NCBI RefSeq assembly: GCF_003576375.1
Contig: NZ_QWGE01000002.1
Span: forward strand, 62,001-126,000
Source: Pontibacter oryzae
Lineage (GTDB): Bacteria > Bacteroidota > Bacteroidia > Cytophagales > Hymenobacteraceae
Length of the DNA: 64,000 nt
Direction: 5' to 3'
Shown in pieces: positions 1-64,000 of the stretch. The notes beneath the pieces are model-generated. The model saw only the letters and a program-made list of their open reading frames with translations, was not told the DNA's origin and ran no database searches. Each line of letters opens with the position of its first letter. The first letter of the stretch is position 1. Made by a program: the position numbers and the translations under genes.

Positions 1-115
1 GCTCTTTCTGGAAATCGGCCACCTCGTGCTTCCAGTCGGGTTTGGCTTGCTCCTGGGCCAAAGCGGCAAAACCACTTAACAGTAAGGCCAATGGGAGTAT
101 AAATTTTAGTTTCAT
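1..115 (-). CDS. Secreted protein, N-terminal fragment (continues beyond the window)
   Basis: Only the first 38 codons are present. They encode a clear signal peptide (MKLKFILPLALLLSGFAALA followed by QEQ) and then a hydrophilic stretch, KPDWKHEVADFQKE. The ATG overlaps the stop codon of the upstream gene as TAATG, so the two are very probably co-transcribed and translationally coupled. Exported Bacteroidota SGNH/GDSL-type hydrolases sometimes begin with a similar short acidic segment, but this fragment is too short to assign a family. The protein is likely periplasmic or secreted. Confidence 0.75.
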   Translation of the reverse strand, partial: MKLKFILPLALLLSGFAALAQEQAKPDWKHEVADFQKE

Positions 116-7240: not shown

Positions 7241-7480
7241 AGTATGCTTTCATACGCTTTTTAGGTGATGTTAAGTTATGCTTACGTGTTTGCCATACCC
7301 AGAGAAGGCCATAGTAGCCGGCATGCCCTTGCCATAAATCACGTATTAAGTAACTGCCCTGCACCTTTTCAGCTTTGGAGGCAGTGTGCCTACTGCTTAA
7401 AGTGCTTCCACACTTTCAGTATTTCCAATTCATATTTCCGCATTGATGCTTATCTTGCTGTTGAAAACAGACTCCAACCC

Positions 7481-10400
7481 ATGCAGCACACGCTACTAAA
7501 CCCGCGACAGGCCTTAAACAAAGCATACCTCAGGCTAAAAACGCCACGCACCGACATGGAAGCCTTTAAAGCGGCGCTCCAACATTTGCTGGATAGTATA
7601 AACCTGAACGAGAGCGAGGAACACGCCAAGAACCACCTGCGCGACTTCCTGAAAAGCACGTTCTACGAAAAGTATGGCGTAAACACCAAAGGCAAAACCG
7701 ACCTGGTGATACACACTGGCGCTACCACAAAAAGCAATGCCGGCGTGCTGCTGGAGGTAAAGCGGCCCACCAACAAGGCCGACATGCCCACCCCCGAAAA
7801 CCTGAACTACAAGGCCACCCACGAGCTGCTGCTATACTACCTGCGCGAGCGCGTGGAGCACCAGAACCACGACCTGCGCCACCTGGTGGTAACCAGCGTG
7901 CACGAGTGGTTTGTGTTTGATGCCCTGGAGTTTGACCGCCTGTTTTACCGCAACACGCAGCTGCGCAAAGATTTTACCGACTGGGCTGCGGGCCGCAAAG
8001 CCAGCACCAGCACCGATTTCTTTTACAAGCACATTGCCGCGCCATACATTGCCGGCCTTTCCGAAAGCATCGGTTTCACGCATTTTAACCTGCTCAGCTA
8101 CGAAAAGCCGCTGCGCAACAAAGACCTGAAAGACGATGTGAAGCTGGTGGCGCTGTACAAACTGCTCTCGCCGGCGCACCTGCTCAAAGAGCCCTTCGCT
8201 AACGATGCCAACTCCCTGGACAAAGGCTTTTACCAGGAGTTGCTGCACATTATTGGCCTGGAGGAAGTGAAGGAGGGAGGCCGCAAACTGATACGCCGCA
8301 AAGAGAAACCAAACCACGGCTCGCTGCTGGAGGCTGCTTACCAAAAGCTGCGCTCCGAAGACCTGGTGAGCGGCCTGAATAACACCCACAGCTTTGGCAG
8401 CACCCGCGAGGAACAGCTGTTTAACGTATCGCTGGAGCTGTGCATTACCTGGGTAAACCGTATCCTGTTCCTGAAACTGCTGGAGGCGCAGCTCATTAGC
8501 TACCACCAGGGCGACAAGCGCTTTGCCTTTATGAGCGCCCAGAACCTGCAGGAGTTCGACGACCTGAACGAACTGTTTTTTGACGTACTGGCCGAGCGAC
8601 CTCAAAACCGCGCCGCCAACGTGCGCCAGAAGTATGGCCATATTCCATACCTTAACTCCTCGCTGTTCGAGACCACTGAGCTGGAGAAACGCACGCTGCG
8701 CATCTCTAACCTGAAAGACCGCAGCCTGCTGCCGCTGCACCCGCAAACCGTGCTGCGCGATGCCCAGGGCAAGAGCCTGGCTAAAAGCAAAACCCCGGAG
8801 CTGCATACGCTGGAGTACCTGCTGCGCTTTTTAGGTAGTTACGATTTCGGGGCCGAAGGCAAAGAGGAGATTCAGGAAGAAAACAAAACGCTGATTACAG
8901 CCTCGGTGCTGGGGCTTATTTTTGAGAAGATAAACGGCTACCGCGACGGCTCATTCTACACGCCCGGCTTTATAACCATGTACATGAGCCGCGAAGCCAT
9001 ACGGCGCGCGGTGGTTCAGCGGTTTTCTGAAAAGTATAACTGGGACATTGATACCAGCGCTTCCGGCTCTGGGTTCGAATCCCTGCAACTCCGCATCCAC
9101 CAGAACTATACCTTAAATAAACTGCAGGAATATAACGAGGTGCTGAACAGCCTGCGCATCTGCGACCCAGCCGTGGGCTCGGGCCACTACCTGGTTAGCG
9201 CCCTGAACGAGCTGATCGTGATTAAGGCAGAGCTGCGCCTGCTGCTGAACCGGCAGGGCAAAGCGCTGCATTACGGCAGCATTGAGGTGCAGAACGACGA
9301 GCTGATCGTGACGGACTACGCCGGCGAGTTGTTCAGCTACACGGTGCACCTGCACCCCGACGGCCACCGAAGTATAAACCCGCAGGTGCAGAAGCTGCAG
9401 GAAGCCCTATTCCATGAGAAGCAGACCATTATCGAGAACTGCCTGTTTGGCGTGGACATTAACCCAAACTCGGTAAAGATCTGCCGCCTGCGCCTCTGGA
9501 TAGAACTGCTTAAAAACGCCTACTACCTGGAGCATGATGTACAGGATGCCGGCGTGGGCAGGATTTCCATGCAGGGCGATGCTGACGCAGCAAGCCCGGT
9601 GTGCTATGCCAACACCAGCAGCCTGCGCAATGGTTTTGAGCCTGAAACGCGCCCTGACAAGTACACGCAGCTGCAAACGCTGCCCAACATCGATATAAAC
9701 ATAAAGCAGGGCAACTCGCTGCTGAGCCGCTACCCGCTCTCCGCCGACCTGCACGAGGCCTTTGGCAAGAAGGGCCATAGTTTGCAGGCTTACCGCGAGG
9801 CTGTGCGCAAGTATAAACACACCAACTCCAAAGCTGATAAAAAGCAGCTGGTTACCTTTTTAGAGGAGATTAAGCAGGGCTTTAAAACCACGCTGGCCAA
9901 CAACGACCCACTGCGCCGCGACATGGCCAAACTGCGCGGGCAAATTGCCGTGATGCAGGACCCCGACCTGTTCGGAGCCAAAAAGATTGACAAGAAAGAG
10001 CTGCAACGCAAGCAAAAGCAACTGCAAAAGCTGGAAGACGAACGCGAGCAGATCGAAACAAACAAAGTATACGAAGGTGCTTTTGAGTGGCGCTTTGAGT
10101 TTCCGGAGGTGCTAGACGAGGAAGGCAAGTATAAAGGCTTCGACGTGGTGATCGGTAACCCGCCGTATATCAGGCAGGAGGAGCTTGGCAACTTTAAAGT
10201 ATACTTGCAGAAGGCATTTAGCACCTATGCAGGCACCGCCGATTTGTATGTATACTTTGTGGAGCGCGGTTTAGAGTTGCTGCACGCAGGCGGCCAGTTT
10301 AGTTACATTATCCCGAACAAGTGGATGCGTGCCGGTTACGGCAAGGCGCTGCGCCAATGGCTGCAAAACCATGCGTTGGTGCAGCTGCTGGACTTTGGCG

Positions 10401-11542
10401 ATTTGCCTGTGTTTGAGGAAGCCACCACGTACCCGCTCATACTTGCCGTGGCAAAGTATAAACCCGAGGCTGGTTATACTTTTGAGGCGGCAACGATAAA
10501 TACGTTGCAATTTGAGCAAGGGCTGAAAGGCTATGTACAGGTTCATAAGTATGATGTGCAGGCCGACCTTTTACCCGACTCAGGCTGGACGCTCTCCGAC
10601 AGCACCGCACAGCAACTGCTGGAGAAGCTGAAAAACACCGGCACACCGCTGGGCGATTATGTGGAGGGCAAAATTTATCGTGGTGTTCTTACAGGGTTGA
10701 ATGAGGCTTTTGTAATTGATGAAGCCACCAAAGATCGCCTTATTGCCGAAGACCCGCGAAGTGCAGAAGTTATAAAACCATTTTTAATTGGCAGAGATAT
10801 AAAACGATACTTAGCACCGAAATCTAACTCATATCTGCTATTCATACCTTGGCATTTTCCGCTACATAACGATACTACAATATCAGGTGTATCATTAGAA
10901 GCTGAAGAATTATTTAAGAAAGAATTCCCTGCAGTTTATAATCATCTACTTTCTTTTAAAGTAGGATTGAGCAACAGAAATAAAGCCGAGACAGGAATAA
11001 GATATGAATGGTATGCTCTACAGAGGTGTGCTGCGACATACTTTGAAGAATTCGATAAGCCAAAATTGTTTTGGCCTGGTATATCTCTAGATATAACTTC
11101 CTTCACTGCAGATTATAGTTTTCAATATTATGGAAATGATAATACTCAAATTATTATAACTGATGAAAACTATTTGCTTGGTGTACTAAATTCTAAAATA
11201 TCTAAGTATTTCTTGATGCAAGTCTGCGATTTCGTTCGAGGAGGTTATTGTAGACTTAAAGTAAATTACGTTTCTCAACTCCCCATCGCCATCCCAGACG
11301 AAGAAACGAAAGCAAGTATAACCGCATTAGTCGAGCAGATATTAAGTATAAAACAAGCCGATGCCGCTGCCGATACATCGGGGCTTGAGGCGGAGATAGA
11401 TGTGCTGGTGTACCGCCTTTACAAACTCACCTACGAGGAAGTGCTGCTGGTAGACCCAACATTCGCCCTGCCCAAAGAAGCTTACGAGCAGCAGCCCAGC
11501 ACAGCCCTGGCAGCATCCGGAGGCCCAACGGCGAACGCATAA
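7481..11542 (+). CDS. Type IIG restriction-modification enzyme (Eco57I/TaqI-like, nuclease-methylase-TRD in one chain)
   Basis: A 1353-residue fused enzyme that would methylate adenine in its target and cleave unmodified DNA. The N-terminus has a PD-(D/E)XK-type nuclease signature (KTDLVIHTG near residue 70, then GVLLEVKRP near 90). The methylase core shows SAM motif I DPAVGSGHYL (near 561), then GVDINPNSVKICRLR, and the amino-methyltransferase motif GNPPYIRQEE (near 890). The C-terminus is a TaqI-like target recognition domain (IKPFLIGRDIKRY to CRLKVNYVSQLPIAIP). I chose the ATG at 7481 because the in-frame upstream 72 residues are cysteine-rich and unlike the family. The TRD coding segment (about 10.75-11.28 kb) is 20-35 percent GC against about 55 percent elsewhere, suggesting a swapped specificity module. 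No separate S or R gene is adjacent. Confidence 0.92.
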   Translation: MQHTLLNPRQALNKAYLRLKTPRTDMEAFKAALQHLLDSINLNESEEHAKNHLRDFLKSTFYEKYGVNTKGKTDLVIHTGATTKSNAGVLLEVKRPTNKADMPTPENLNYKATHELLLYYLRERVEHQNHDLRHLVVTSVHEWFVFDALEFDRLFYRNTQLRKDFTDWAAGRKASTSTDFFYKHIAAPYIAGLSESIGFTHFNLLSYEKPLRNKDLKDDVKLVALYKLLSPAHLLKEPFANDANSLDKGFYQELLHIIGLEEVKEGGRKLIRRKEKPNHGSLLEAAYQKLRSEDLVSGLNNTHSFGSTREEQLFNVSLELCITWVNRILFLKLLEAQLISYHQGDKRFAFMSAQNLQEFDDLNELFFDVLAERPQNRAANVRQKYGHIPYLNSSLFETTELEKRTLRISNLKDRSLLPLHPQTVLRDAQGKSLAKSKTPELHTLEYLLRFLGSYDFGAEGKEEIQEENKTLITASVLGLIFEKINGYRDGSFYTPGFITMYMSREAIRRAVVQRFSEKYNWDIDTSASGSGFESLQLRIHQNYTLNKLQEYNEVLNSLRICDPAVGSGHYLVSALNELIVIKAELRLLLNRQGKALHYGSIEVQNDELIVTDYAGELFSYTVHLHPDGHRSINPQVQKLQEALFHEKQTIIENCLFGVDINPNSVKICRLRLWIELLKNAYYLEHDVQDAGVGRISMQGDADAASPVCYANTSSLRNGFEPETRPDKYTQLQTLPNIDINIKQGNSLLSRYPLSADLHEAFGKKGHSLQAYREAVRKYKHTNSKADKKQLVTFLEEIKQGFKTTLANNDPLRRDMAKLRGQIAVMQDPDLFGAKKIDKKELQRKQKQLQKLEDEREQIETNKVYEGAFEWRFEFPEVLDEEGKYKGFDVVIGNPPYIRQEELGNFKVYLQKAFSTYAGTADLYVYFVERGLELLHAGGQFSYIIPNKWMRAGYGKALRQWLQNHALVQLLDFGDLPVFEEATTYPLILAVAKYKPEAGYTFEAATINTLQFEQGLKGYVQVHKYDVQADLLPDSGWTLSDSTAQQLLEKLKNTGTPLGDYVEGKIYRGVLTGLNEAFVIDEATKDRLIAEDPRSAEVIKPFLIGRDIKRYLAPKSNSYLLFIPWHFPLHNDTTISGVSLEAEELFKKEFPAVYNHLLSFKVGLSNRNKAETGIRYEWYALQRCAATYFEEFDKPKLFWPGISLDITSFTADYSFQYYGNDNTQIIITDENYLLGVLNSKISKYFLMQVCDFVRGGYCRLKVNYVSQLPIAIPDEETKASITALVEQILSIKQADAAADTSGLEAEIDVLVYRLYKLTYEEVLLVDPTFALPKEAYEQQPSTALAASGGPTANA

Positions 11543-11583: not shown

Positions 11584-12378
11584 ATGAATATGAAAACACG
11601 CTTACTCTACCTGCTGCCATTGGCCGTACTGCTTTGGGGCTGCCCCTCCTCCGACAGCGAGACCCCTGAGCCTGAAGAAACCTGCTACCTGCAAACGTAC
11701 ACCAAATTCCAGCCGCTTGGCGGCAACAAGAAAGTGGCGTTCAGCACAAAGTATACCTACAACACACAGGGTCAACTCACCACCGTCGCCCTCGATTCTG
11801 CCAACGTAACGCTGCGAACCGGCCAGGTAAGCTACGATAGCCAGAAGCGCCTTTCCGAAATTGCTTACCCTAACAGTAAGGTGGTTTATACATACAACGC
11901 CCAAAACCAGCTTACCCGGCAAAGCCGGCACATTGCTTCCGGCAACGGAGCTTATACAGAAAATGAATACTACACCTTCGCCTACGGTAGCAAGGGGCAT
12001 CTCAGCGAGGCCAGGTATCACTTTGCGGGCACAGACCAGAGCAGTTGGTATTACACCTGGAAGTATACTTACAACGACAGCGGTAACCCCACTCGCATCG
12101 AAATGCTCGACGCGCGCGGCGACAGGCTTAGTTTAACAGAAATTAGTTTTGATAATCATCCGTCGCCGCAAAACAGCCTGCCGCCGGGCTTCTTTGAGCC
12201 GCTTTTGGCAGCGTCAGCGCATAACCCTGTTGCCGTTACCGTAACCAATCAACACCAAGGCACGCTAAGTTTTGCCGTAAGCTATACTTACAACCCGGAA
12301 GGGCTTCCGGTAAGCGCGGTTAAAACCTATGGTTCCGGGGAGCAGGAGCAAATGGCCTATACTTATACCTGTTTCTAG
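11584..12378 (+). CDS. Lipoprotein with YD-like repeats
   Basis: A 264-residue outer-surface or periplasmic lipoprotein. It begins with a lipoprotein signal (LLPLAVLLWGC, lipidated Cys20), then an acidic linker (SSDSETPEPEE), then repeated short strands of the form YTYNxxGxL (YTYNTQGQL, YTYNAQNQL, YTYNDSGNP, YTYNPEGLP), reminiscent of RHS/YD repeats and of DUF4595-type Bacteroidota lipoproteins. No catalytic motif is visible and the function is unknown. The gene at 16203 is a paralogue with the same architecture. It starts 41 bases after the restriction-modification gene and is followed after 13 bases by the DUF922 gene. An alternative ATG lies two codons downstream, at 11590. Confidence 0.8.
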   Translation: MNMKTRLLYLLPLAVLLWGCPSSDSETPEPEETCYLQTYTKFQPLGGNKKVAFSTKYTYNTQGQLTTVALDSANVTLRTGQVSYDSQKRLSEIAYPNSKVVYTYNAQNQLTRQSRHIASGNGAYTENEYYTFAYGSKGHLSEARYHFAGTDQSSWYYTWKYTYNDSGNPTRIEMLDARGDRLSLTEISFDNHPSPQNSLPPGFFEPLLAASAHNPVAVTVTNQHQGTLSFAVSYTYNPEGLPVSAVKTYGSGEQEQMAYTYTCF

Positions 12379-17074: not shown

Positions 17075-17112
17075 AGCAGCCCCGTCTAAGTATACTTAGG
17101 CGGGGCTGCTTG
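17075..17112. terminator. Bidirectional terminator with AAGTATACTT at its apex
   Basis: A 38-base near-perfect palindrome (one T-G mismatch) between convergent genes. The arms AAGCAGCCCCG and CGGGGCTGCTT enclose CTAAGTATACTTAG. The iterated palindrome forms the loop-proximal stem. Confidence 0.9.
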
Positions 17113-22029: not shown

Positions 22030-24281
<2,252 letters not shown>

Positions 24282-27380: not shown

Positions 27381-27405
27381 GGAGTATGTTCGACAGAAAG
27401 TATAC

Positions 27406-39485: not shown

Positions 39486-40751
39486 CTAAGATATTATTTT
39501 CTTAGCTTGCCTTGTGCCTTTAAGATTAAAACTTTCTGTGTTTTCTGTGGAAATTAGTAAGGTTGATAAAAAAACAAAGAAAATAATGCCCTTTTGTGTT
39601 TCTAAAGTGCTTTCGGTTATAGCACAACTCATAAACAGCAAAACAAAAGCCGCTAGCAGGTGATTTTTATACTTAAATGCAGTATATAGCATTAAAACGA
39701 GATAAGCCATAAACACAGAAAAGCCAGTAAAACCCAAAGCCAATAGTATTTGTACATATTGGTTATGTGGGTCCATCTGGTCTGCAAAGGCTTCTGAATA
39801 ACCATCTTGATGAAACTTTGCCGTAAGCTCTCGTTTAGTGTCACCGGAGCCAACTCCAAATATTGGGTTTTCTGAGATGACGCTTGCACTTGCCATCCAA
39901 AGCTGTTGACGTTGGTTAATTCCGTAGCTGTTTTCCAGTTTCATTTTCAAATAAGGCGTGCTCAAAACTACGATTAGACTTATCACAAATAGTAATGCAG
40001 TGGAACCTATAGCAAACCATATTTTCTTATTATATGCTAAATAAGCAAAGCCTCCTGCAGCCAATATTAATAAGCCAGCAATTAAAGCCGTTCGAGAAGA
40101 CAAAACAACGGTAAAACCCAGTAAGTATAAAAGTAGTACCAACCAATGCCAGTATCCTGAAAACCGTTTGCCATTAGCTAAGCTAGCAAGTATCACATAA
40201 AAGACCACCAGCGCGGCCATCATTGTATACATGCTAAAGTATGGCGGATGAAAATCAATTTGCTTGGGCAGGAAATAGGAAAAGTATATCCAGTCAATTT
40301 CAGATGAATTTCCTGTTACCCTAAATTCATTCAAGAGAGCAACCTTGTAAACCATAATCGATAAGGTGACTAAGGTAGCGAGTGTAACAGTTCCTACAAA
40401 GGCTTTCAGAAAGTTTAGCCGCTCAACGTCTTTAAGCCTAAGCGATGAGATGACTAGCGGGAACAACAGTAAGGTACTCTTTAGCTCCAACTGAGCCAAA
40501 GCGGCTTTAGTATCTAAACTATTGGGTACGCTGAGAATATAAAGTGCATAAAGTAAGTACAGGAGAATATACGGTGGCTTCTTAAACGAACTCTTTGCAT
40601 CCTGAAGTATTTGGAATCTGCTTATCCAGGCTGCAACAATTAAAATTATCGAGAAAGAGTTGAGCGTTATGCCGAAAGGCATGGTAAGTATAAAGGCGTA
40701 AATAGCAAGTATTAGCAAAGTACGCCTGCTAAGAGAATTTTTTTTAATCAT
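39486..40751 (-). CDS. O-antigen ligase/polymerase-like membrane protein (first of two)
   Basis: A 421-residue protein with about 11 membrane helices and a large periplasmic loop carrying the WaaL/Wzy_C pattern: ENPIFGVGSGDTKREL and then DQMDPHNQYVQILLALG. Such proteins polymerise repeat units (Wzy) or transfer glycan to an acceptor (WaaL, PglL class); sequence alone does not separate these. A second family member lies at 43054, so one may be the polymerase and the other a ligase. Confidence 0.85.
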   Translation of the reverse strand: MIKKNSLSRRTLLILAIYAFILTMPFGITLNSFSIILIVAAWISRFQILQDAKSSFKKPPYILLYLLYALYILSVPNSLDTKAALAQLELKSTLLLFPLVISSLRLKDVERLNFLKAFVGTVTLATLVTLSIMVYKVALLNEFRVTGNSSEIDWIYFSYFLPKQIDFHPPYFSMYTMMAALVVFYVILASLANGKRFSGYWHWLVLLLYLLGFTVVLSSRTALIAGLLILAAGGFAYLAYNKKIWFAIGSTALLFVISLIVVLSTPYLKMKLENSYGINQRQQLWMASASVISENPIFGVGSGDTKRELTAKFHQDGYSEAFADQMDPHNQYVQILLALGFTGFSVFMAYLVLMLYTAFKYKNHLLAAFVLLFMSCAITESTLETQKGIIFFVFLSTLLISTENTESFNLKGTRQAKKIIS

Positions 40752-40776
40752 GCTACAGGTTTCTACTGATAGGGGC

Positions 40777-41895
40777 TTAGGCTGTTGTGGGTAATTTGCT
40801 GGAGACCAGTGCTGCTATCTTGGCACGGAATTGATCTTTGTTGAACCGCTCCGCATGCCCCCTAATTTGGCTTGGGCTAAAAATCAGACTTCCAGACTCA
40901 AATTCTAGTATTGCTTCTGTTAGTGAGGCGACCGTTTGTTCTGGATAAAGTATCCCTGTTTTTCTATCTAGTACTGTTTCCACGGCCCCGCCCTTGCCAA
41001 AAGCTATTACAGGCGTACCGCAAGCCTGCGCCTCTACCGGAAGTATGCCGAAATCTTCCTCCGCAGCGAATACAAAAGCCTTTGCTCGTTGTAAATAATC
41101 TTTCAGCACGTCGAATGGTTGGTAACCCAGCATAGTTATGTTTGGAGTAGCCTGTGCTTTAAGCTTTTCGTAATTTGGCCCGGTGCCTATTATGACAAGC
41201 TTTTTATCCGGCATTTTTGCAAAAGCCTCTATAATAAGATCTACTTTTTTGTATGGCACCAACCTTGAGGCGGTTACATAGAAATCCTCCTTATTTGCAG
41301 CTAAAGTAAAATTTTCTACATCTACTGGCGGGTAGATAACTGTTGCCTCCCGTCTGTAAACTTTTTGGATTCTTCGGGCAATGTAGCTGGAGTTTGCGAT
41401 GAAATGATCCACACGGTTAGCGGTGCTGTAGTCCCAGATTCGGATATAATGCAGGATTAACTTTGCAAGAGTTCCCTTAAATCCGCTAGTTAAGCCTGCT
41501 TCCTTTAAATACTGCTGGTATAAATCCCAAGCATATCGAATAGGAGAGTGGCAATAGCATATATGCGTCTGGTAACTATGTGTGAGGATGCCTTTGGCTA
41601 CAGCATGGCTACTACTAATAACCAACTTATATGCGGATAGATCAAGTTGTTCAATAGCAAATGGCATAAATGCCAGGTAACTGCGATAATGTTTTTTAGC
41701 GAAGGGAAGCTTTTGTATAAAGGTTGTATGTACCTTTTTTTGCAATAAGTGTTTCCGGAGATGCTCTGGCATGAAGTCAATCAGCGAGAAGAGGTCTGCA
41801 CTAGGGTAAAGCGTTAGCAACTCTTCTACAACTCTTTCTGAGCCAGCATACTCCACAAACCAATCATGTACGATGGCTACTTTCAATCCTTCCAA
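40777..41895 (-). CDS. Glycosyltransferase family 4
   Basis: A 372-residue GT-B transferase. The N-terminal domain begins LKVAIVHDWFVEYAGSERVV; the central ICYCHSPIRYAWD and VDHFIANSSYIARRI are typical of WbaZ-like mannosyltransferases. The C-terminal donor-binding region contains GTGPNYEKLK and FGILPVEAQACGTPVIAFG (E-x7-E type glutamates). Mannosyl transfer is plausible by resemblance but not proven. Confidence 0.9.
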   Translation of the reverse strand: MEGLKVAIVHDWFVEYAGSERVVEELLTLYPSADLFSLIDFMPEHLRKHLLQKKVHTTFIQKLPFAKKHYRSYLAFMPFAIEQLDLSAYKLVISSSHAVAKGILTHSYQTHICYCHSPIRYAWDLYQQYLKEAGLTSGFKGTLAKLILHYIRIWDYSTANRVDHFIANSSYIARRIQKVYRREATVIYPPVDVENFTLAANKEDFYVTASRLVPYKKVDLIIEAFAKMPDKKLVIIGTGPNYEKLKAQATPNITMLGYQPFDVLKDYLQRAKAFVFAAEEDFGILPVEAQACGTPVIAFGKGGAVETVLDRKTGILYPEQTVASLTEAILEFESGSLIFSPSQIRGHAERFNKDQFRAKIAALVSSKLPTTA

Positions 41896-41951
41896 ACCAG
41901 AGTAGTCGTTAATTATGTGTTTATAAAAAATATTTTACTAGATAAAGGCTC

Positions 41952-43073
41952 TTACGTCTTAAGTAAGGATTCAAAAACCCTTTGATGTTGTATAGCTGAT
42001 TGCTGCCAACTATACAGTTCTATTTGTTTTAAGCCGCGTTCAATTAAATCTGAACGCAAGATTTCGTTAGTCAAAGCTTGGTGCATGCGGTGCTCCAAAA
42101 TTGAAGCATCGGATGGTGGGAAATACAGGGCGGCATCTGCACATACCTCTGGCATACTGGCCGTTTCAGATACTATAACAGGGCAACCACATGCCATTGC
42201 TTCGAGAGGAGGCAAGCCAAAACCCTCATACAACGATGGAAAAACGAACAAAGATGCGGAATTATATAGAAGTTGCAGCTGCTTTTCTGAAACTTGACCC
42301 GTAAAGAAAACACGCTGATTTAATGTGTGGTTAGCCTGAAGCAATTTAAATACGTTTTGATCGCTCGTGATGAAGCCATCCTTTTTCCCAACGATTACTA
42401 AAGTGTACTTCTCATCCAGGGTTTCTAATAATCCCGAAAATGCCTTAACCAGCGTGCTGAGGTTTTTGTGTGGTTTCACGTTACCTACATAAAGTATAAA
42501 TTTACCCTCCGGTAAGTTTGGTATACTTTGTTTTAAGGCCGTCTGTGCTTCAACTTTATCTAACTGCCTAAATATTTCCTTATCCAGGCCATTATGAATG
42601 ACCTCAACATCTGCCGGCCTTAGGTTAAGGTATTTTTGCAATTCCTTCTTAGAAAACTCTGAAACCGTGATAACTTTATCTGAGACCCTGGAGCCAGCCC
42701 ATAATAGCAGGTTGCAATAGAGCCTTTGGGCTAATGAAAGGGTATGTTGGAACGCCAGGTGATAGGTATCGTGGATAGTTACCACACGTTTATGGGCGGG
42801 CACGGGCAACAGTGGTATATTATAGTGCGGTGACCAGAATATATCGCAGGTAGGTGCAAACTTGTAAAGCTCCCATTGCTCTTTAATAGTATAGATGCGA
42901 GTTTTAGGAGCTATAACCTTTGTGCTTGGGGGTAAATTGAGTTTTGCTACTTCCTCTGGGTTGCCTAATAGTCTGACATCGAAGGCTTGTGCCAATGATG
43001 GAATAAGGTTTTGGAGGTAGGTGCCAATACCCGAGGCTCCTAGCATCCGAGCATCAACGACTAGCGAAGCCAT
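41952..43073 (-). CDS. Glycosyltransferase family 4
   Basis: A 373-residue GT-B retaining transferase: ASGIGTYLQNLIPSLA at the acceptor-domain start, HDTYHLAFQH, VITVSEFSKKELQKYL, then ILYVGNVKPHKNLSTL and PSLYEGFGLPPLEAMACGCP in the donor domain. Start placed at 43073 (MASLVVDARMLG); a longer in-frame start at 43106 overlaps the upstream gene further. With the chosen start the gene overlaps the preceding O-antigen gene by 20 bases. Confidence 0.9.
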   Translation of the reverse strand: MASLVVDARMLGASGIGTYLQNLIPSLAQAFDVRLLGNPEEVAKLNLPPSTKVIAPKTRIYTIKEQWELYKFAPTCDIFWSPHYNIPLLPVPAHKRVVTIHDTYHLAFQHTLSLAQRLYCNLLLWAGSRVSDKVITVSEFSKKELQKYLNLRPADVEVIHNGLDKEIFRQLDKVEAQTALKQSIPNLPEGKFILYVGNVKPHKNLSTLVKAFSGLLETLDEKYTLVIVGKKDGFITSDQNVFKLLQANHTLNQRVFFTGQVSEKQLQLLYNSASLFVFPSLYEGFGLPPLEAMACGCPVIVSETASMPEVCADAALYFPPSDASILEHRMHQALTNEILRSDLIERGLKQIELYSWQQSAIQHQRVFESLLKT

Positions 43074-44355
43074 ATATTTTTTTCTTTTCAATGAGATGCT
43101 CTCCAACTAAAAGACCAAAGAGTATCCAGTAAATAATAAAATTTGTTCTGCCGGCAAAGGCTGAGTTCAGAAAGCTGGCAGCACCGAAGTATACGCTAAA
43201 GCATATGAAAGACATGCACAGTTGTTTCTGCAACAAATTACGGGTGCGATAAAACTCCCTCAGAGCGAAGGTAAAGCAACTCACATAAAAAAACAGATAA
43301 AGCGAGCCAAGTAGTATGCCGTTCTCTAAAAACAATTGCAGCCAATAACCATCTGTAATCATTTTGCTGCTACCACCACTTGGTCCTTGCGAGCCCACTC
43401 CAATCCCAGCAAAGGGACGTTGGGCCAAGTATGAAAGTGATGCTTCGATCTGGGTGAAATGCTCATTGTTAGATTGCAACGAGTTTATGTCCTGCCCTGT
43501 GAAGCGCTTGATCATGAGGGAGTCTTGGTAAAAAATATAGGCTCCGAGAGCAAGGATTACAAGCAGAAGGGCTATTCCGAACATCCTTAAGATAAATGAC
43601 ACAGACAGGCGCCCGTAGCGCAGGTATAATCCAACAAAAACAACTATGATAAGTCCAGCTAGCGCCGCCCGTGTAAAAGTCAGCAGCGTTGCCACTGCTA
43701 TAAGCAATAACACAAAAAAGCACTTCCAAGTGGTGTTGTATAAATATTTTGCGAAGTAAAAACTGAACAGTATAATCGTAAAGCTGGAGAAGATTATCGT
43801 ATTACCTACGAGTGCCGTAGGTCTGACTATGCTTGTGCCCCAAAAGCCAAAGGTAGCTTCGCTCCTGAGTACCATCAGTGATTTTGGAAGCGATGTGGCA
43901 AACACAAACTGGAAGTACGAAAATACGACGAGCAGTAAGCCGATAGCTATCAAAAGATTCAGCGTTTTGATTATATGCCTTTCCCTTTTGAAAAAGAGCG
44001 GGATGTAGAGCAAGGGCGCGATATAAATTAGATTATTCCGCAGGCCTAGCACTTTCTCAGGGAAAGGATTCCTATCGATAAGCAATAGTTTACCAAGCGT
44101 TAAGATGAAAAGTATGCTTAAGCTGCCTAGAATGAAACAGTATACTTTATCTACCTGCACGCTGTAGTACAAACTGTAAGCATACCAAAGCAGCAGGTGT
44201 ATAAGTATGAGCGAGAGTAAAAGGTCAACGAGTACAGTACCGGTATTGATCTGTGAAAAAGACAGGAAGTTTGTAAAAAAGCCACTCAGGAGTAAAGCTA
44301 TGATGATAGCTTTTACAAGCAGCGCCGATAGAGAAAATTTAGCCAGTATAAACAT
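43054..44355 (-). CDS. O-antigen ligase/polymerase-like membrane protein (second of two)
   Basis: A 433-residue multi-helix protein with the Wzy_C/WaaL-type loop: LAQRPFAGIGVGSQGPSGG and then DGYWLQLFLENGILLGSLY. Ten or more hydrophobic segments. The start ATG overlaps the stop of the GT2 gene upstream as TAATG. See the partner at 39486; the locus thus has two such proteins. Confidence 0.85.
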   Translation of the reverse strand: MFILAKFSLSALLVKAIIIALLLSGFFTNFLSFSQINTGTVLVDLLLSLILIHLLLWYAYSLYYSVQVDKVYCFILGSLSILFILTLGKLLLIDRNPFPEKVLGLRNNLIYIAPLLYIPLFFKRERHIIKTLNLLIAIGLLLVVFSYFQFVFATSLPKSLMVLRSEATFGFWGTSIVRPTALVGNTIIFSSFTIILFSFYFAKYLYNTTWKCFFVLLLIAVATLLTFTRAALAGLIIVVFVGLYLRYGRLSVSFILRMFGIALLLVILALGAYIFYQDSLMIKRFTGQDINSLQSNNEHFTQIEASLSYLAQRPFAGIGVGSQGPSGGSSKMITDGYWLQLFLENGILLGSLYLFFYVSCFTFALREFYRTRNLLQKQLCMSFICFSVYFGAASFLNSAFAGRTNFIIYWILFGLLVGEHLIEKKKIYGFASR

Positions 44356-45353
44356 TACACGCCACGTTGGATCATCAGCCGTAAAATAGACTTTGCTCTA
44401 TTAAACTGCAACCTCTTTAATCGCAGGAACACTGAAGCTAGCAAAATCAAATAGAGTAACGGCATTTTCGCGGGATAAAACTTTTTGACGAAGTGTATTT
44501 TGCTCCGAACCCCTTCAATGTCGGCCAAGATGCTTTTCTTCGCTCCATTAGAACTAGACCCAATAGTCTGGCCCTCTTTATGGTATACCCTACTTTCGGA
44601 AGCATACCCTAACTGAAAGCCTTTTTGCCTGCCTCGTGTGGCCCAGTCTAGCTCCTCAAAGTATAAAAAGTAATTTTCGTCAAGCAGCCCTACTTTTGTA
44701 ACAAACTCTGCGCTCACAAACATAGAGGCACCTACAATATAGTCAGCTTCCAGAACAGTCTCATCTGCTGCAGGGGAATCAGCTTGGTTTTCGCCGATAT
44801 GTTTGGTTGTGAAGGTCGTATGGTTAAACTTTCCGCCTAGGGCTTGAATGATAGTGGGTCGGTGATAAAAAAGAAGCTTTGATCCCCATATGCCAATGTT
44901 GTTGTTTTTTGAGCAGTCATTCACGGCCTGATTTATCAATGCTGAAAGGCTTTCCTTATCAACGGTTGTATCATTGTTTAAGAGCCACAGGTAGTTAAAA
45001 TCCGCTTTACCGAGCGCGTACTGCATAGCAATATTATTGCCTGCAGCAAACCCTCTGTTGGCGTTAGCCTCGATAAAAATGATGCGGGCAGCCAGTTCAG
45101 AAGTCGGCTTGCTGCGCGTATTGCTTAGAGCTTCAGACTCCTTGAGTACAGAAAAAGCATCGGGAGCATTCTTAAAATAGGTGTTAGCCCACGTTGTAAG
45201 CTGACTGAACGAGTGGTCAGGGGAGTTATTATCAACCACCAGTATCTGGTAGTTATCATACTTCAAGCTCAACACACTGATAAGGCACTCAATGGTATCT
45301 TTCCAGCCCTTATAGTTAAGAATAATGATATATACTTTAGCAGCTTGGAACAT
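44355..45353 (-). CDS. Glycosyltransferase family 2
   Basis: A 332-residue GT-A enzyme when started at 45353 (MFQAAKVYIIILNYKGWKDT), which matches family N-termini. The longer start at 45416 would overlap the upstream gene by 37 bases. Motifs: QILVVDNNSPDHS, FIEANANRGFAAGNNIA, WLLNNDTTVD, and YFLYFEELDWATRGRQKG with the catalytic-base cluster. The C-terminus has a short hydrophobic stretch (LLYLILLASVFLRL) that may anchor it. Rhamnosyltransferase-like. Confidence 0.88.
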   Translation of the reverse strand: MFQAAKVYIIILNYKGWKDTIECLISVLSLKYDNYQILVVDNNSPDHSFSQLTTWANTYFKNAPDAFSVLKESEALSNTRSKPTSELAARIIFIEANANRGFAAGNNIAMQYALGKADFNYLWLLNNDTTVDKESLSALINQAVNDCSKNNNIGIWGSKLLFYHRPTIIQALGGKFNHTTFTTKHIGENQADSPAADETVLEADYIVGASMFVSAEFVTKVGLLDENYFLYFEELDWATRGRQKGFQLGYASESRVYHKEGQTIGSSSNGAKKSILADIEGVRSKIHFVKKFYPAKMPLLYLILLASVFLRLKRLQFNRAKSILRLMIQRGV

Positions 45354-45379
45354 GGCAATAGGTATGATATTACTAATTT

Positions 45380-46315
45380 TTAAGCCCTTAGTAGTACATT
45401 GGCTACTTTGGTCCACGTGCTACCGAAAAATGAATATTTGAAAATCAGCCATTTTCGATATATAAAGTTACGTGATTTTAAGGAAATAAAAGCTTCCAGA
45501 ATTTTTCTGTCTTCTAAGCTGAGTTGATTTAAGTATTTTTTGTAAAATGAGTCTGCCTGAGCTATTTCATCGTTGAGAAGCCGGAGTTTACCCTGACGCA
45601 TCTTTCTGTAAAGTTTAACCAATTTTTGAGCGCGATTTTCTCGCGCTGCCCCAACAACATTACGGCCATGCTGACGATACAAAACCAATGGCTTATTTAC
45701 GTATCCAGTTTGACCGAAACAGGTAGCAACCAACGTTAGCCAAACATCGTGCATCAGGGCTTCAGGAGGCATTGGCTGTGCTTGATCAAGAAGCGGCCTG
45801 TTGATTAGCGCCGTGCAACCGGTAACCACATTTTCGACAAGCACCCGATTCAATTGCTTATAGTTTGGGTTTAACTGCATGTATTGCCAATATGAGGGGC
45901 AAATGCAATTCAGGTCTTCGTTAACTACTTGTAAGTCGGTATACACAAGTGCAGGAGTGCCAGCAGGGGCGTTAGCCTCCAGATCGTTCATTTTAGCAAG
46001 GCTGAGTTGAAGTTTCTCCGGTAGCCATACATCATCCTGGTCGCAAAGGGCGAGGTACATGCCTGATGCCAATTTCATTCCTTTCGCAAAGTTCTGCACT
46101 ACACCTAGTTTTTCTTGGTTGATATAGTACTTAAGCCCATGCACTGATGCATAGTGTTGCAAAACTTCGTGTGTGGCATCATCAGATCTGTCATCGCATA
46201 CAATCACTTCTATGTTTTTATAACTTTGGCCATACACAGAGTTCAATTGCGCCTCCAGAAACCGAGCGCCATTATAGGTTGCAATCACTACTGTGATGAG
46301 AGGAGTATTTGCCAT
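45380..46315 (-). CDS. Glycosyltransferase family 2
   Basis: A 311-residue GT-A transferase: ITVVIATYNGARFLEAQLNS, VIVCDDRSDDAT, ALCDQDDVWLPEKL (DxD with the QDD signature of alpha-rhamnosyl or galactosyl-type enzymes), MHDVWLTLVA and YRQHGRNVVG. The QDDVW/HD arrangement resembles dTDP-rhamnose transferases, but the donor is unproven. It lies 80 bases after the GT2 gene at 46396. Confidence 0.9.
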   Translation of the reverse strand: MANTPLITVVIATYNGARFLEAQLNSVYGQSYKNIEVIVCDDRSDDATHEVLQHYASVHGLKYYINQEKLGVVQNFAKGMKLASGMYLALCDQDDVWLPEKLQLSLAKMNDLEANAPAGTPALVYTDLQVVNEDLNCICPSYWQYMQLNPNYKQLNRVLVENVVTGCTALINRPLLDQAQPMPPEALMHDVWLTLVATCFGQTGYVNKPLVLYRQHGRNVVGAARENRAQKLVKLYRKMRQGKLRLLNDEIAQADSFYKKYLNQLSLEDRKILEAFISLKSRNFIYRKWLIFKYSFFGSTWTKVANVLLRA

Positions 46316-46395
46316 AAAAGCTTTAGAACTATGTTTGCCTGCGTATGTTCAGGGTAAGCAAGTATAGTAAAACAGGGGTCTACTTTGAGGAATGA

Positions 46396-47247
46396 TTATT
46401 TGTGATTGTATCTGCCAAACTTTCTTCTTTTAAAGTCCAGGTAGCCTAGTATAAAACTTTTAAGCTTTCTAAGTTTATCCTTTTCAAACGCCAGGACTTT
46501 AAGTATTTCTACAAAGTTTTTATTTTTTTCCGAAGCTGCAAATTCAGGAAAATACTTTTTAAACTGATGTAATATTTCCAGTCTGTTTCTAGTGATGTAA
46601 TACCTTCTCAGGTAATTGTGGTTGCTTGTGCAGAGCCGCCAGCCGAACAGATTATGACATGTTTGGTTGCCAAGTTGATGCGATAGCCTAGCCGCGTGGT
46701 TTATGATGATTTTATACTTTTGCACCTGTAACCTAAGGCAATATTCATGGTCCACGAAATCTATAAACAGATTCTCTCGAAAAGGCCCCACTTGGGCATA
46801 AGCCCTTAGGTTCAAAATACTACCGGAAGTAATGGCGGAATTAACCTCCTCGAGTAATGCTTCGGTGTGAGAGGTGGGCGCTGCTGTGTAGCCTGCCGCC
46901 ACAATGCCAATTTCATTTAGTGGCTGTGCTTTTAGCGTGGCAAGTAGTTGTTCTATCATGCTAACGCCACATTTGCTGTCCTGGTCCATCATCAAGAGCC
47001 AGCTATAACCGGCCTCCAGCGCTTGGGTTGCGGCAATGTTGAGCGCCTTTGCCATACCCAAATTTTCACCAAGACTACGGTATACAGCATGTGGAAACCG
47101 CTTTGCCATCTCCTCAATAAATTGGGGCGACACTTCCTCTGAATTATCTATAACATACAGTTTTTCAACTGCCATGCTATAAGATGCCATGTTGAGAAGT
47201 ACATCTGCATCCGGGCGGTAAAGTACGACAACTGCTGCAATCTGCAT
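46396..47247 (-). CDS. Glycosyltransferase family 2 (rhamnosyltransferase-like)
   Basis: A 283-residue protein: IAAVVVLYRPDADVLLNMAS, KLYVIDNSEEVS, SLGENLGMAKALNIA, LLMMDQDSKC (DxD equivalent) and FIDFVDHEYCLRL as acidic catalytic cluster. This arrangement is that of RfbF/WbbL-type rhamnosyltransferases. No rml genes for dTDP-rhamnose synthesis are in the window, so the donor may be supplied from elsewhere or be another sugar. Four-base spacing to its upstream neighbour. Confidence 0.9.
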   Translation of the reverse strand: MQIAAVVVLYRPDADVLLNMASYSMAVEKLYVIDNSEEVSPQFIEEMAKRFPHAVYRSLGENLGMAKALNIAATQALEAGYSWLLMMDQDSKCGVSMIEQLLATLKAQPLNEIGIVAAGYTAAPTSHTEALLEEVNSAITSGSILNLRAYAQVGPFRENLFIDFVDHEYCLRLQVQKYKIIINHAARLSHQLGNQTCHNLFGWRLCTSNHNYLRRYYITRNRLEILHQFKKYFPEFAASEKNKNFVEILKVLAFEKDKLRKLKSFILGYLDFKRRKFGRYNHK

Positions 47248-47250
47248 CCC

Positions 47251-48243
47251 TTATATTTCCTGCTTCTTGAAAATGGAAATAATCTCGTGCTCAAAGTGTT
47301 TTTCCTCCTGCAAGACACGCTTTCTGTACAAATCAAAATCTTGGGTCAGTGTTTCAAAGTGGGTAAAGCATTGTTTAATCAAGTTTATAATTTCAGTGGA
47401 CGACGATGCTACGTGCTGGAACTTATACTTATCCAATATGGGCACGTCCTCTTGGAAATTAGCGGAGCCATCCCGGCCTGTAATCACGCAACATTCGTTC
47501 ATAACGGCTTCCCTGGGGAAACGGTCTTTGCCAGGGTGCGCACCAAAGTCAACGTAAACTTTACTTTTGGCGAGCAGTTGTTTCACTTCAGGAACCGTCA
47601 TGTTTTCTATCGGAATCCAAGTGATTTCCGGCGATGCCTCAATGAGTACCCGCGTGTTCTCAATACCTTTTTTGGGATTGTAAAGTACTTGGTCGTGCTT
47701 TTTCTGCCTGGTATAGCCCTCAAAATAAGAAGCGTTCAGATAATCTGAAAGGTAATAAAGGTTTGCGATGCCGCGGTTCTCTAAAAAAGTATAGGCATAC
47801 GTTGATTGGGCAAAATGATAATGCTGGTTCGCCTGCGTATCGTCCAGACGAAAATGCCTTTTGAGCGTTATCAGCCGCTTCAGTGCGCTAAAGCCTGATC
47901 TGTTTCTTTCAAGAGCCAGAGAGGCAAAATAGTTATCAACGCTTAACCACCAGATGGCTTTCTGGATATGTTTGTAAGTGCTGAGCAGAAACGTTGATAC
48001 CTCGGGCACAATAAGTACGTGCTTTGCGTTGTCCTCTATCTTTGTAACAAATGTGGGCTTATATTGCTGATAGCGTGGTGGTACAGGGTCTTTAGTGTTT
48101 CCCGGGAAATAGTAAAGTTGCGCGTTATAGCCCAGGCACGTCAGTTTATAAAAAAGCTGGTGCATGGCTTCGGGGCCACCGGTTACCTCCCTGGCCGGGC
48201 AGGCTATATAAATGACCGAATCAGATGAAAGAGTAACTGCCAT
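47251..48243 (-). CDS. Unassigned protein, probable GT-B-type glycosyltransferase
   Basis: A 330-residue soluble protein of no family I can name. Its N-terminus (VIYIACPAREVTGGPEAMHQL) resembles the acceptor-domain loop of GT-B enzymes. The C-terminal part has LLAKSKVYVDFGAHPGKDRFPREAVMNECCVITG, split here by residues 240-275, which parallels the donor-binding E-x7-E region of GT4 proteins (REAVMNECCVITG). Both neighbours are glycan genes and the start ATG overlaps the glf stop as TAATG, so a role in the same polysaccharide is likely. Confidence 0.65.
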   Translation of the reverse strand: MAVTLSSDSVIYIACPAREVTGGPEAMHQLFYKLTCLGYNAQLYYFPGNTKDPVPPRYQQYKPTFVTKIEDNAKHVLIVPEVSTFLLSTYKHIQKAIWWLSVDNYFASLALERNRSGFSALKRLITLKRHFRLDDTQANQHYHFAQSTYAYTFLENRGIANLYYLSDYLNASYFEGYTRQKKHDQVLYNPKKGIENTRVLIEASPEITWIPIENMTVPEVKQLLAKSKVYVDFGAHPGKDRFPREAVMNECCVITGRDGSANFQEDVPILDKYKFQHVASSSTEIINLIKQCFTHFETLTQDFDLYRKRVLQEEKHFEHEIISIFKKQEI

Positions 48244-61562: not shown

Positions 61563-61565
61563 GTG

Positions 61566-64000
61566 CTAAAGTTCTAAACGTGGGTCAGAGTCGAGTATGA
61601 TGCGGTCGCGTTCCATTTCCATGCGCTGCCTGCGCCGCTCGCGCTTCTCGCTCCCAAAAAGCTCGCGCAAGCTGTCAAAGCGCTTGGTGTGCAACAAGCT
61701 GATACTCTGGCTTTGCGTGATGCGCTGGGTATAAATATTTGGTGTGGAGTTGTACTCTAGTCGCGCGCGCAGCTCACCAGTTTGGGAAATGTAATAGTCC
61801 AGCAACCAGTCGCCTACATAGGCATTTCCGGTGACATCGTCGGATGTCCCCCCAAAGCCTGTTTCGTTGGTAACGCGCAGCCTGCCCTGGAAGAACGTAT
61901 AACTCAGGCGCACCTGGAGCGAGGCCAGGGCATCTTGGCCGAGGTTTCCGAGCCCGATGTCTACTTCCAGGTTACTGTCTATACTATTAAAGAAGTTGTT
62001 CAGCTGGCTGGAAAGCAAACTGCCCAAGCTGCCACCCACGGCACCCGCACCCACGCTGCTATCAAAGGCAAGCGTGCCTTGCGGAGACAGGCGTTGAAGA
62101 ACAAGCAGGCTGAATACCTGTCTGTTCAGTTCGCTTTCATCGCTCTTTATAGAGTTAATGAGCGAGTATTGTGAGGTTTGCACCTCCTGCGGCAGCTGAT
62201 CGAAGCTTAGCCCGAGCTGAATTTGAGGCGTAAGCAATGGGCCGTTCAAGTCTATGACAGCCGTAACAGGATAGCGGCCCGATACATCTGACTGGCTCCC
62301 CGACAGCCCACTAAACGACGTAAGCTGGGTATAATTCGCGGTGATATCCATGACGCCGGCCGTTGGGTCACCGTTCCAGGTAATGGTGCCGCCTGGTACA
62401 ACCCTGAACTCCTTAGATACCAGACCTTCCAGCAGGTTCAGGTTGTAAGCTCCCTGGGTTATTTCGAAGGTGCCAAACATGTTGAAGTCTCCGCGTGTGT
62501 CGATCGTCATTTGGATGTCGCCGTTGCCGGTTCCCCGGATCACGTCTCCTGTAGTGCGATCAATGATGATTTCAAAGTATGCGTCATCCGTCACATCCAG
62601 GTTAAAGTCCAGGTTTATTCCGGAAAGGTCAATGGCTGTGTTTTCAGCGGCTATCTCCACACCGGTGCTATCGCCTTGGTTGCGGTTCACGAACTTGATA
62701 AAGTCTTTGCGTGCCACGTCGGTCTGGTAATCAAGTGGGAGCACAATGCGCGTATTGTCTTCGCTGCGGGCATCTACCTTTACCTTAAGGTTCTCGGTTG
62801 GGCCCAGCACGCTAGCGGTGCCGGTAGCGAAAGCAGTCCCATAAAAGAGCTCGTTCTGATCTTCTGTGGTGTTAAGCACCATAAAGTTGCGGTAGCGTGC
62901 TTCCAGGTCTATCACCATATCCCGGAAACCGTCGTGGGTAATTCCGCCGCTAACGGTGGCGCGGTTGCCATAGAGGTCTTGTAACTGCGCGTTTCTGAAA
63001 CTGATGCTGTTTGGGCCAAAGTATACCCGATCGCTGAAGCGGTAGGCGGTATTAAGGTAATCAAAGGTAAACTGACCATCTGATACCATTACCGAACCCT
63101 TGAGCACTGGGTAAGAAAGGCTGCCAAGTATACGAATCCTGCCCTCCATGGAGCCATCCAGGTCAGAGAACAAGCCTCGGAGCACAGGCTCTACCAATTT
63201 CATGTTAGCTTGGTCCATAACGGCAAGCAGGTCCAATTGGTCGTCTTGCGCCTGTGGGTAATAGTTTCCGGAAACAGAAAGCACTTTTTTACTGTCTCGC
63301 TCGATGCCAATATCAACTACAGCCTGGCTGTTGGCTTTGCTCCAGTCTGTTTTGCCCGATATATTTCCAATAAATACCTGATCGAGGTAAAAGGAGTCGA
63401 CTTGCATGGCTGCGGTTACCTTTGCCTGGTTGTAGATGTCCTGCGCTGTGAGTTCTGCCGTTAAATCGCCGGCGATTTTCATGGAGAGGAGCGGGTTAAG
63501 GTTGCGCAGGTCGAAGTTTTCAACGTTTAGGAGCAACTTACTTTGAGGATCGTCTGAGATTGTGCCTTCCGCTCGAATAACCTGGTTTTGGTTAGTTAAG
63601 GCAAAGTTTTCGAACTGCAGGTTTTTTCCAGCTTCGCTTATATAGATGGTGTTGCCAGGCACAAAAGCCCAAGGGTTTTGCTGTAGCGTAATATTCGACT
63701 CATCAAAAACGATCTGCAGCTGGTTTTGCAAAAAATTAAGGTCACCGGTTATTAAGGCCCGGTTATTTTGCTCGGGTTGGCGAATGCTGGTAGAAAACTG
63801 AATGGTGCGCTCACTCCAGATTCCCTCCAGGAAAAAGTTTTGCGTGTTCCCGGCTCCGGGCAGCATCTGCTTTTGCGAGGTAAACAATGCGGCTGCCAGC
63901 ACGTCCGGGCTCTGCTGTATCTTAGAGGTATTGATCTCAATGGCGTTGCCATAAAGCTGGTAATCCTGGTATTGAATAGTGTCAATGTCTGCGTAGAGCT
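61566..64000 (-). CDS. TamB-like (DUF490) translocation/assembly protein, C-terminal part
   Basis: The frame stays open through the window edge, so only the C-terminal 810 or so residues are here; a GTG at 63902 is internal, not a start. Repeating beta strands dominate (LQLRIHQ-like alternation is absent; instead LLNVENFDLRNLNPLLSM, MVIDLEARYRNFMVLNTT). The DUF490 core near the end shows GDIQMTIDTRGDFNMFGTFE, ITQGAYNLNLLEG and then GTITWNGDPTAGVMDITANY. Such AsmA/TamB proteins span the periplasm and carry lipids or aid outer-membrane protein assembly. The tail (KRERRRQRMEMERDR) is highly charged. Full-length homologues in this phylum are much longer. Confidence 0.9.
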   Translation of the reverse strand, partial: LYADIDTIQYQDYQLYGNAIEINTSKIQQSPDVLAAALFTSQKQMLPGAGNTQNFFLEGIWSERTIQFSTSIRQPEQNNRALITGDLNFLQNQLQIVFDESNITLQQNPWAFVPGNTIYISEAGKNLQFENFALTNQNQVIRAEGTISDDPQSKLLLNVENFDLRNLNPLLSMKIAGDLTAELTAQDIYNQAKVTAAMQVDSFYLDQVFIGNISGKTDWSKANSQAVVDIGIERDSKKVLSVSGNYYPQAQDDQLDLLAVMDQANMKLVEPVLRGLFSDLDGSMEGRIRILGSLSYPVLKGSVMVSDGQFTFDYLNTAYRFSDRVYFGPNSISFRNAQLQDLYGNRATVSGGITHDGFRDMVIDLEARYRNFMVLNTTEDQNELFYGTAFATGTASVLGPTENLKVKVDARSEDNTRIVLPLDYQTDVARKDFIKFVNRNQGDSTGVEIAAENTAIDLSGINLDFNLDVTDDAYFEIIIDRTTGDVIRGTGNGDIQMTIDTRGDFNMFGTFEITQGAYNLNLLEGLVSKEFRVVPGGTITWNGDPTAGVMDITANYTQLTSFSGLSGSQSDVSGRYPVTAVIDLNGPLLTPQIQLGLSFDQLPQEVQTSQYSLINSIKSDESELNRQVFSLLVLQRLSPQGTLAFDSSVGAGAVGGSLGSLLSSQLNNFFNSIDSNLEVDIGLGNLGQDALASLQVRLSYTFFQGRLRVTNETGFGGTSDDVTGNAYVGDWLLDYYISQTGELRARLEYNSTPNIYTQRITQSQSISLLHTKRFDSLRELFGSEKRERRRQRMEMERDRIILDSDPRLEL

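Follow-up and report, generated by a model that had tools for sequence, protein, structure and literature searches.

The window analyzed here, 64,000 nucleotides of contig 2 of the Pontibacter oryzae genome (4.23 Mb, 99.99% complete), carries over its whole length (1 to 64000) a dispersed motif, AAGTATR/YATACTT, in 177 copies, 89 on the plus and 88 on the minus strand, or about one every 360 bases. These comprise 58 AAGTATA, 58 TATACTT, 31 AAGTATG, and 30 CATACTT. Six times, two opposite copies share their TATA and form the palindrome AAGTATACTT (1259 to 1268, 2453 to 2462, 10197 to 10206, 12061 to 12070, 17088 to 17097, and 27398 to 27407). The third of these palindromes, like the plus-strand AAGTATA copies at 9032 to 9038 and 9370 to 9376, falls within the gene for a type IIG restriction-modification protein (Eco57I, TaqI_C; plus strand, 7265 to 11542), which we tested as a reader of the motif. 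The ligA gene (minus strand, 22030 to 24039) was our source of orthologous loci and of a tree. A first-pass annotation of this DNA had likewise counted six palindromes and had given the sites at 9032, 9370, and 10197 exactly.

AAGTATA/TATACTT is the leading 7-mer of the window by a wide margin, with 116 copies where a dinucleotide Markov model expects 7.9, so that the first-pass figure of roughly 100 to 110 against 8 to 10 was, if anything, an understatement. The same annotation took AAGTATA as the unit and left AAGTATG/CATACTT, which contributes 61 further copies, unmentioned. Measured against a trinucleotide model in 864 kb (the window and 800 kb from contig 1), AAGTATA is 7.05-fold and AAGTATG 5.07-fold enriched, while the remaining single-base neighbors of AAGTATA lie at 0.74- to 1.91-fold; the full word is therefore AAGTATR, and it is sharply bounded. 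In the whole genome, AAGTATACTT occurs 220 times, compared to 2 for a reversed-pattern control.

Words that contain TATA are frequent in AT-rich DNA, and one could suppose that base composition, codon usage, or codon-pair bias has produced the excess, but we regard the chance of this as next to negligible. In a synonymous-codon shuffle of 612 ORFs with 245,432 codons (from the window and 800 kb of contig 1; ORFs from a simple purpose-made caller without annotation), AAGTATA was observed 902 times against 173 expected (5.2-fold) and AAGTATG 670 times against 129. AAGTATA ranks first among 7-mers by z in this test, and the first word in the ranked list that does not overlap the motif reaches only 2.2-fold. 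Given this excess and the lack of an equally enriched unrelated word, neither of the two outcomes that the first-pass annotation had held to speak against its claim, a count close to a codon-aware null or many unrelated heptamers enriched to the same degree, was found. One short word is over-represented genome-wide beyond codon constraints, which is what is looked for in an uptake sequence. Copies occupy every frame of the window ORFs on both strands (sense 17/16/12, antisense 12/14/17) and are denser between ORFs (3.4 per kb) than inside them (2.1 per kb), in keeping with the first-pass description of a motif present in all frames, on both strands, and in spacers. Its further statement that base composition does not explain the motif also holds, as the AT-rich part of the window at 40001 to 48000 (GC 0.42) has 13 copies compared to 11 to 23 in the other 8-kb blocks, and related species with similar GC use different words. 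Its statement that the word forces the use of an otherwise uncommon ATA codon has to be dropped: ATA makes up 4,020 of 14,609 Ile codons, of which 580 overlap the motif by at least 2 bases.

Along contig 1, density rises just past gene ends. The first three 25-base bins past stop codons hold 99, 78, and 78 copies, compared to 22 to 38 per bin before the stop, and density peaks between convergent genes (4.9 per kb, versus 3.2 to 3.3 in tandem and divergent spacers). Closely spaced inverted pairs of uptake sequences serve as terminators; a scan of contig 1 found no favored inverted-pair spacing apart from the overlapping palindromes at offset 3 (44 overlapping opposite pairs), and we dropped terminator hairpins, judged by spacing alone and without folding, for want of a preferred value. 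Regular spacing was likewise sought and not seen, the coefficient of variation being 1.25 in contig 1 and 0.99 in the window; the spacing is over-dispersed.

Over 800 kb of contig 1 with uniformly negative GC skew, 879 copies lie on the plus strand and 995 on the minus strand (47:53), a replichore bias that is small, though not a negligible departure from even. This balance bears on the idea of a Chi-like recombination hotspot read by an AddAB- or RecBCD-type enzyme with an altered recognition subunit. Chi words are, like the motif, short, over-represented, and lineage-specific, and few substitutions change their specificity, but the known ones lean strongly to the leading strand, and a lean of this kind was not found in the 800 kb. 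On this strand balance, we have set the explanation aside as distinctly improbable.

The motif is also thinner in atypical DNA. Relative to shuffled expectation, ORFs in the most typical quintile of codon usage carry it at 6.2-fold and those in the least typical at 3.9-fold. The lowest 12-gene stretches lie in contig 1 at 473 to 520 kb (GC 0.40 to 0.41, about 1.55-fold), the lowest of all being 473 to 500 kb at 1.55-fold, and such DNA may have been acquired horizontally. Two more low stretches, at 229 to 246 kb (1.57-fold) and 248 to 266 kb (1.78-fold), have an ordinary GC of 0.47. A gene for an N6 methylase sits in the AT-rich stretch at 473 to 520 kb.

Related species spell the word differently. 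The LigA of the window is up to 85% identical to named Pontibacter proteins, from which we place the host in this genus (Bacteroidota, Hymenobacteraceae). We surveyed the ligA loci (12 to 22 kb each) of 38 Pontibacter and Botryobacter genomes, assigning dialect labels by eye and rechecking eleven species with 72 to 82 kb and 172403-2 with 42 kb. Dialect A, AAGTATR, is used by 12 of these genomes and the window; dialect B, AACTATAG, by three clean genomes and two in which it is mixed with A; and dialect C, AGGTATAG, by 12, while two (E15-1 and harenae) have a weak motif and seven have none. Species that exemplify A, mixed A and B, B, and C are ruber, fetidus, burrus, and roseus, respectively. 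P. cellulosilyticus is a strong case of A (45 copies in its ligA locus versus 4.0 expected), and in extended sequence the mixed genome unc903 has 166 copies of B versus 17 expected (9.7-fold) and 119 of A versus 25 (4.8-fold). The seven species without a strong motif show AAGTATA at 1.1- to 2.2-fold in extended sequence, and further words based on TATA appear in G140 (CTATATA, 5.5-fold) and E15-1 (RGGTATA, about 4-fold). All three dialects have a common TATA core and differ in the preceding bases (AAG versus AGG or AAC), so that clade-wise dialects around an invariant core, another feature expected of uptake sequences, are present. Their flanks differ as well: A is preferred on both sides in dialect A, A or C before and G after in dialect B, and, in dialect C, A or C followed by A ahead of GG, with GC after.

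Whole-genome counts agree with these labels. Each of the 12 C genomes has 2,823 to 5,222 copies of AGGTATAG, and each of the other 28 has 173 to 751, a clean cut (backwards controls, 65 to 230 per genome). In six genomes of Pontibacter, AAGTATACTT was counted 220, 259, 112, 39, 18, and 5 times, compared to 47 at most elsewhere in a 291-genome sample of the order. In the LigA tree, dialect C forms a single branch (support 100/99) and dialect A requires five changes, with strong branches forcing three or more of them. The sister group of C is vulgaris plus ruber, both with dialect A (95/92), and that of the B group is arcticus, also with dialect A (99/95). That A is ancestral is the simplest reading of this tree, not a proof, as it rests on one gene and a midpoint root. 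Genome size is 5.2 to 6.5 Mb in the seven species that lack a strong motif and 3.8 to 5.1 Mb in the strong bearers, with the weak-motif E15-1 and harenae at 5.6 and 4.9 Mb; we conclude nothing from this because related species share both size and motif state.

Sites are kept within a lineage and respelled between lineages. At the ligA locus, among relatives that are 76 to 91% identical, the motif was intact in fractions of 0.38 to 0.80, compared to 0.18 to 0.58 for control words of the same AT content, unmatched for codon position and place. Retention was above control in 20 of 20 comparisons, which reuse species and are not independent. All respelling counts used controls of the same kind, and those between A and C drew on three loci in each species (about 62 kb). 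From vulgaris (A) to roseus (C), 11 of 45 sites face AGGTATA and 2 are unchanged (control, 3.9%; Fisher P = 2e-6), and from ruber (A) to roseus, 12 of 43 are respelled and 3 unchanged (control, 3.7%; Fisher P = 1e-7), whereas the same-dialect pair of vulgaris and ruber has 29 of 62 sites unchanged and a single one respelled. In the reverse direction, from roseus, the counts are 12 of 40 and 14 of 60, with some sites counted twice because the roseus set has two overlapping pieces. With the ligA locus only, single pairs reached P < 0.05 in three of the six A-to-C, one of the three C-to-A, and one of the six A-to-B comparisons. Pooled A-to-B respelling amounts to 26 of 557 sites versus 0 of 859 controls, in which sites are reused across pairs and controls come from a subset of pairs, and our claim rests on the single-pair, three-locus counts rather than on this pooled count. 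Maintenance of sites and their evolution by point mutation are well established between A and C but not in B, where respelling from A is not firm and sites seem to be mostly new.

Because the word persists within a dialect yet is rewritten at orthologous positions between dialects, we consider it well supported that something acts in trans: probably, a reader maintains the word and has changed its specificity. Such a reader could serve chromosome organization, if a nucleoid, segregation, or repair protein needed a site every 400 bases or so, with selection keeping the sites and its specificity altered in B and C. This would account for most of the same features, including conservation, respelling in place, and the high density right after stop codons and in spacers, and it would not require competence. 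Sites of nucleoid proteins are typically graded, however, and here the word is all or nothing. The near-even strand split, the over-dispersed spacing, and the seven sampled relatives that live without a strong motif also weigh against a reader with a chromosomal function, though not decisively, and we consider it unlikely.

A second candidate for the trans-acting factor is a methylase. An orphan methylase that acts on the word could bias mismatch repair such that copies accumulate without function, as in the Elhai 2015 model for the cyanobacterial palindrome HIP1. HIP1 and the alternate forms differ between lineages in step with methylases (PMC4390886), and in dialect B the palindrome AACTATAGTT accounts for a sizeable minority of copies (58 of 280 oriented AACTATA copies). 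In A and C, by contrast, a palindromic unit is absent; the dialect A palindrome arises where two opposite copies overlap, since the pooled flank profile shows no preference for the completing base C. Words one base off show neither depletion nor strong enrichment. Methylase families are patchy as well: PF01555 is found in 24, PF02086 in 10, and PF00145 in 16 of 40 genomes. PF02384 is matched in 40 of 40, but in P. ruber at 22.2 bits and in P. cellulosilyticus at 23.0 and 20.6 bits (cutoff, 20.4), and we read the latter as other methyltransferases. Those two weak matches are all that P. cellulosilyticus has, with none of the other three families and no match to the type IIG enzyme, and it is strong in dialect A. 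Among these four families and the type IIG enzyme, we thus found no convincing cognate methylase common to all motif-bearing genomes and rejected them as a common cause; a cognate methylase is unlikely in that role, families outside this search aside, and accumulation driven by methylation appears to us quite improbable. The type IIG enzyme of the window is also rejected as a reader, since it is patchy within the genus: any match occurs in just 27 of 40 genomes, nine strong bearers lack one, and full-length copies are present in A and C species alike. Overall, a trans-acting reader is a better fit than codon bias, Chi, or a palindrome driven by methylation.

Pontibacter is not known to be competent, a point against uptake. 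Matches to comEC are found in 39 of 39 genomes and to dprA in 40 of 40, yet they do not discriminate, as they include the seven species without a strong motif. P. sp. HSC-14F20 has stops in both its comEC and dprA matches and nevertheless a full C dialect. For the type IV pilus ATPase (PF00437), 44 genome handles, 40 distinct genomes since four handle pairs gave identical places, yielded only short matches of 18.8 to 25.3 bits, 2 of the 44 barely above the cutoff of 24.9; this search covered the PF00437 family only, and in many genomes some first-look candidates stayed unscored. We read the matches as unrelated ATPases, and pilus motors accordingly appear to be absent. Transformation without a pilus likely has a precedent in the phylum: the available part of a study of Riemerella anatipestifer, a transformable member of Bacteroidota, lists comEC, dprA, comF, and recA as required, along with four proteins unlike known uptake parts, one of which carries DUF5689 (PMC8459023). 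As a reader in Pontibacter, a DUF5689 protein was rejected, because it occurs in only 16 of 40 genomes, unrelated to dialect or motif presence.

Our results lead us to propose that the word acts across the genome as a mark of self DNA, in the manner of a DNA uptake sequence; we give this reading an even chance, and in it uptake itself is argued by analogy. One reader with sequence specificity, probably a DNA receptor at the cell surface or in the periplasm that feeds ComEC and DprA, would favor DNA that bears the word, and fragments from kin would be preferentially taken up and recombined. Driven by transformation, copies would build up wherever protein and regulatory constraints permit, and decayed copies would be restored. 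When the reader shifts its specificity, from AAG to AGG or AAC before TATA, existing sites would be respelled and new ones built, giving clade dialects. Accumulation of this kind would be expected to yield a sharp word on both strands, denser in spacers than in genes, thinner in atypical DNA, with dialects and respelling in place. Several observations count against uptake: no convincing pilus ATPase was found in the PF00437 search, while pilins are the known or predicted receptors of uptake sequences; matches to comEC and dprA extend to non-bearers, and HSC-14F20 keeps its dialect despite the stops; no inverted-pair spacing is favored; two low stretches have ordinary GC; A-to-B respelling is weak; and DUF5689 does not track the motif. 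The putative receptor would apparently have to work without a type IV pilus, and since that trait of the known pilus-dependent uptake-sequence systems was looked for and not found, we do not file the motif among them, though it would work like one. More tentatively, and with somewhat less than an even chance, we speculate that Pontibacter has a pilus-independent DNA uptake specificity in which a fast-evolving receptor of a new class sets dialects, respells thousands of sites, and partitions gene flow among species, as may perhaps be the case for other Hymenobacteraceae with iterated words of their own (CCTAGG, GGGGTAGG).

The first-pass annotation knew of no description of the motif in this phylum, and openly licensed PMC literature (titles and abstract starts) does not contradict this, with no description of the AAGTATR word or of uptake words in Bacteroidota among the matches listed. 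Most of what is known of uptake words comes from two families of Proteobacteria, in which the receptor is a pilin or a predicted pilin. If our proposal is true, dialects maintained in Bacteroidota with no pilus motor would point to a receptor of a different kind, and a genome-wide signal could be observed while it is being respelled, as A, A with B, B, and C are all extant. Related species that have and lack the word could then be used to test whether selection or mere drive accounts for such words, and there might be a practical way to transform the genus.

Uptake signal sequences of Pasteurellaceae fall, like the Pontibacter word, into subtypes by clade. The Pontibacter word differs from them in its Bacteroidota host, in the lack of a convincing pilus ATPase, and in the lack of a favored inverted-pair spacing. 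As described in the available part of PMC1939737, they share with it a sharp, over-represented core and a steep fall-off at one mismatch, and the Haemophilus consensus has extended flanking AT tracts in place of the weak preferences over the nearest 2 to 3 bases found here. HIP1 and the alternate HIPs resemble it in being iterated words, near one per kb, that are replaced in some lineages, but they are GC-rich palindromes tied to methylases with sporadic exceptions (PMC4390886, in part), in contrast to a TATA-cored word that is non-palindromic in A and C, has C as a clade, and comes with no consistent methylase. The first-pass annotation had likened the motif to both DNA uptake sequences and HIP1; the first likeness is the better one, in view of the sharp word, dialects around a common TATA core, respelling, lower density in atypical DNA, and comEC and dprA, notwithstanding the lack of a convincing pilus ATPase, and the second is the weaker.

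R. anatipestifer is alike in being a member of Bacteroidota with comEC and dprA and without a type IV pilus gene among its eight essential genes; it differs in that the available part of PMC8459023 mentions no uptake word and in that DUF5689 is inconsistent in Pontibacter. A further likeness is to the DNA uptake sequences of Neisseriaceae, where the available part of Frye et al. 2013 (PMC3630211) describes eight dialects with a common CTG core. Unlike those, the Pontibacter word has a Bacteroidota host, no favored inverted-pair spacing, 7 to 8 bases instead of 10, and, given the lack of a convincing pilus ATPase, presumably no ComP-type pilin receptor, and the likeness is one of sequence. Both systems, as far as that part of PMC3630211 extends, consist of a short, over-represented word with lineage dialects that keep an invariant core and are congruent with phylogeny, and in both, two dialects can coexist in one species, as in S. 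muelleri of the Neisseriaceae and in unc903 here.

The motif AAGTATR (dialect A), which is dispersed throughout the host genome, shows little enrichment in two stretches of host contig C1, at 473-520 kb and at 229-266 kb. The first of these is AT-rich and carries an N6 methylase gene at position 490941; the second has an ordinary GC content. Among the other features of the window are a type IIG restriction-modification gene at 7265-11542 (PDLC03612, 915 bits), which in many relatives is present only as fragments or as versions containing stops, and a class A RNase P RNA on the minus strand at 24451-24836 (267.6 bits).

Pontibacter sp. HSC-14F20 carries the full C dialect, a spelling that is strong in one Pontibacter clade only, despite stops in its matches to two competence genes: the comEC match contains one in-frame stop, and the dprA match is split into two pieces, with stops. 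These stops may represent assembly errors or a recent loss of competence.

Other iterated words were found in the order. CCTAGG, in many copies with G or T as the next base, was counted 56 to 82 times over the two strands together in sequences of 20-22 kb from Hymenobacter (L043, L044, and L056) and from family f1, genus g5 (L224 and L226), where 8 to 15 copies are expected. GGGGTAGG is present in 19 to 23 copies, against about 1 expected, in L055 (Hymenobacter ginkgonis) and L218 (genome G191), which are probably one genome, and AGGTACGT / ACGTACC words reach 10 to 25 copies in Fibrella and Fibrivirga (L063 and L064), against about 1 to 5 expected. In the whole genomes (9.3-9.8 Mb) of G047 and G102, both members of family f14, genus g41, in the same order, AAGTATACTT occurs 47 and 46 times, and the same pattern read backwards occurs 3 and 5 times. 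The very high counts of GAGTACTC in L231 from family f4, genus g8 (218 in 20 kb) and of TGGACTGC in L230 from family f3 (24 in 20 kb) probably reflect local repeat arrays. Within Pontibacter itself, CTATATA/TATATAG stands at 5.5 times expectation in genome G140 (sequences L188 to L193) and is possibly a further dialect.
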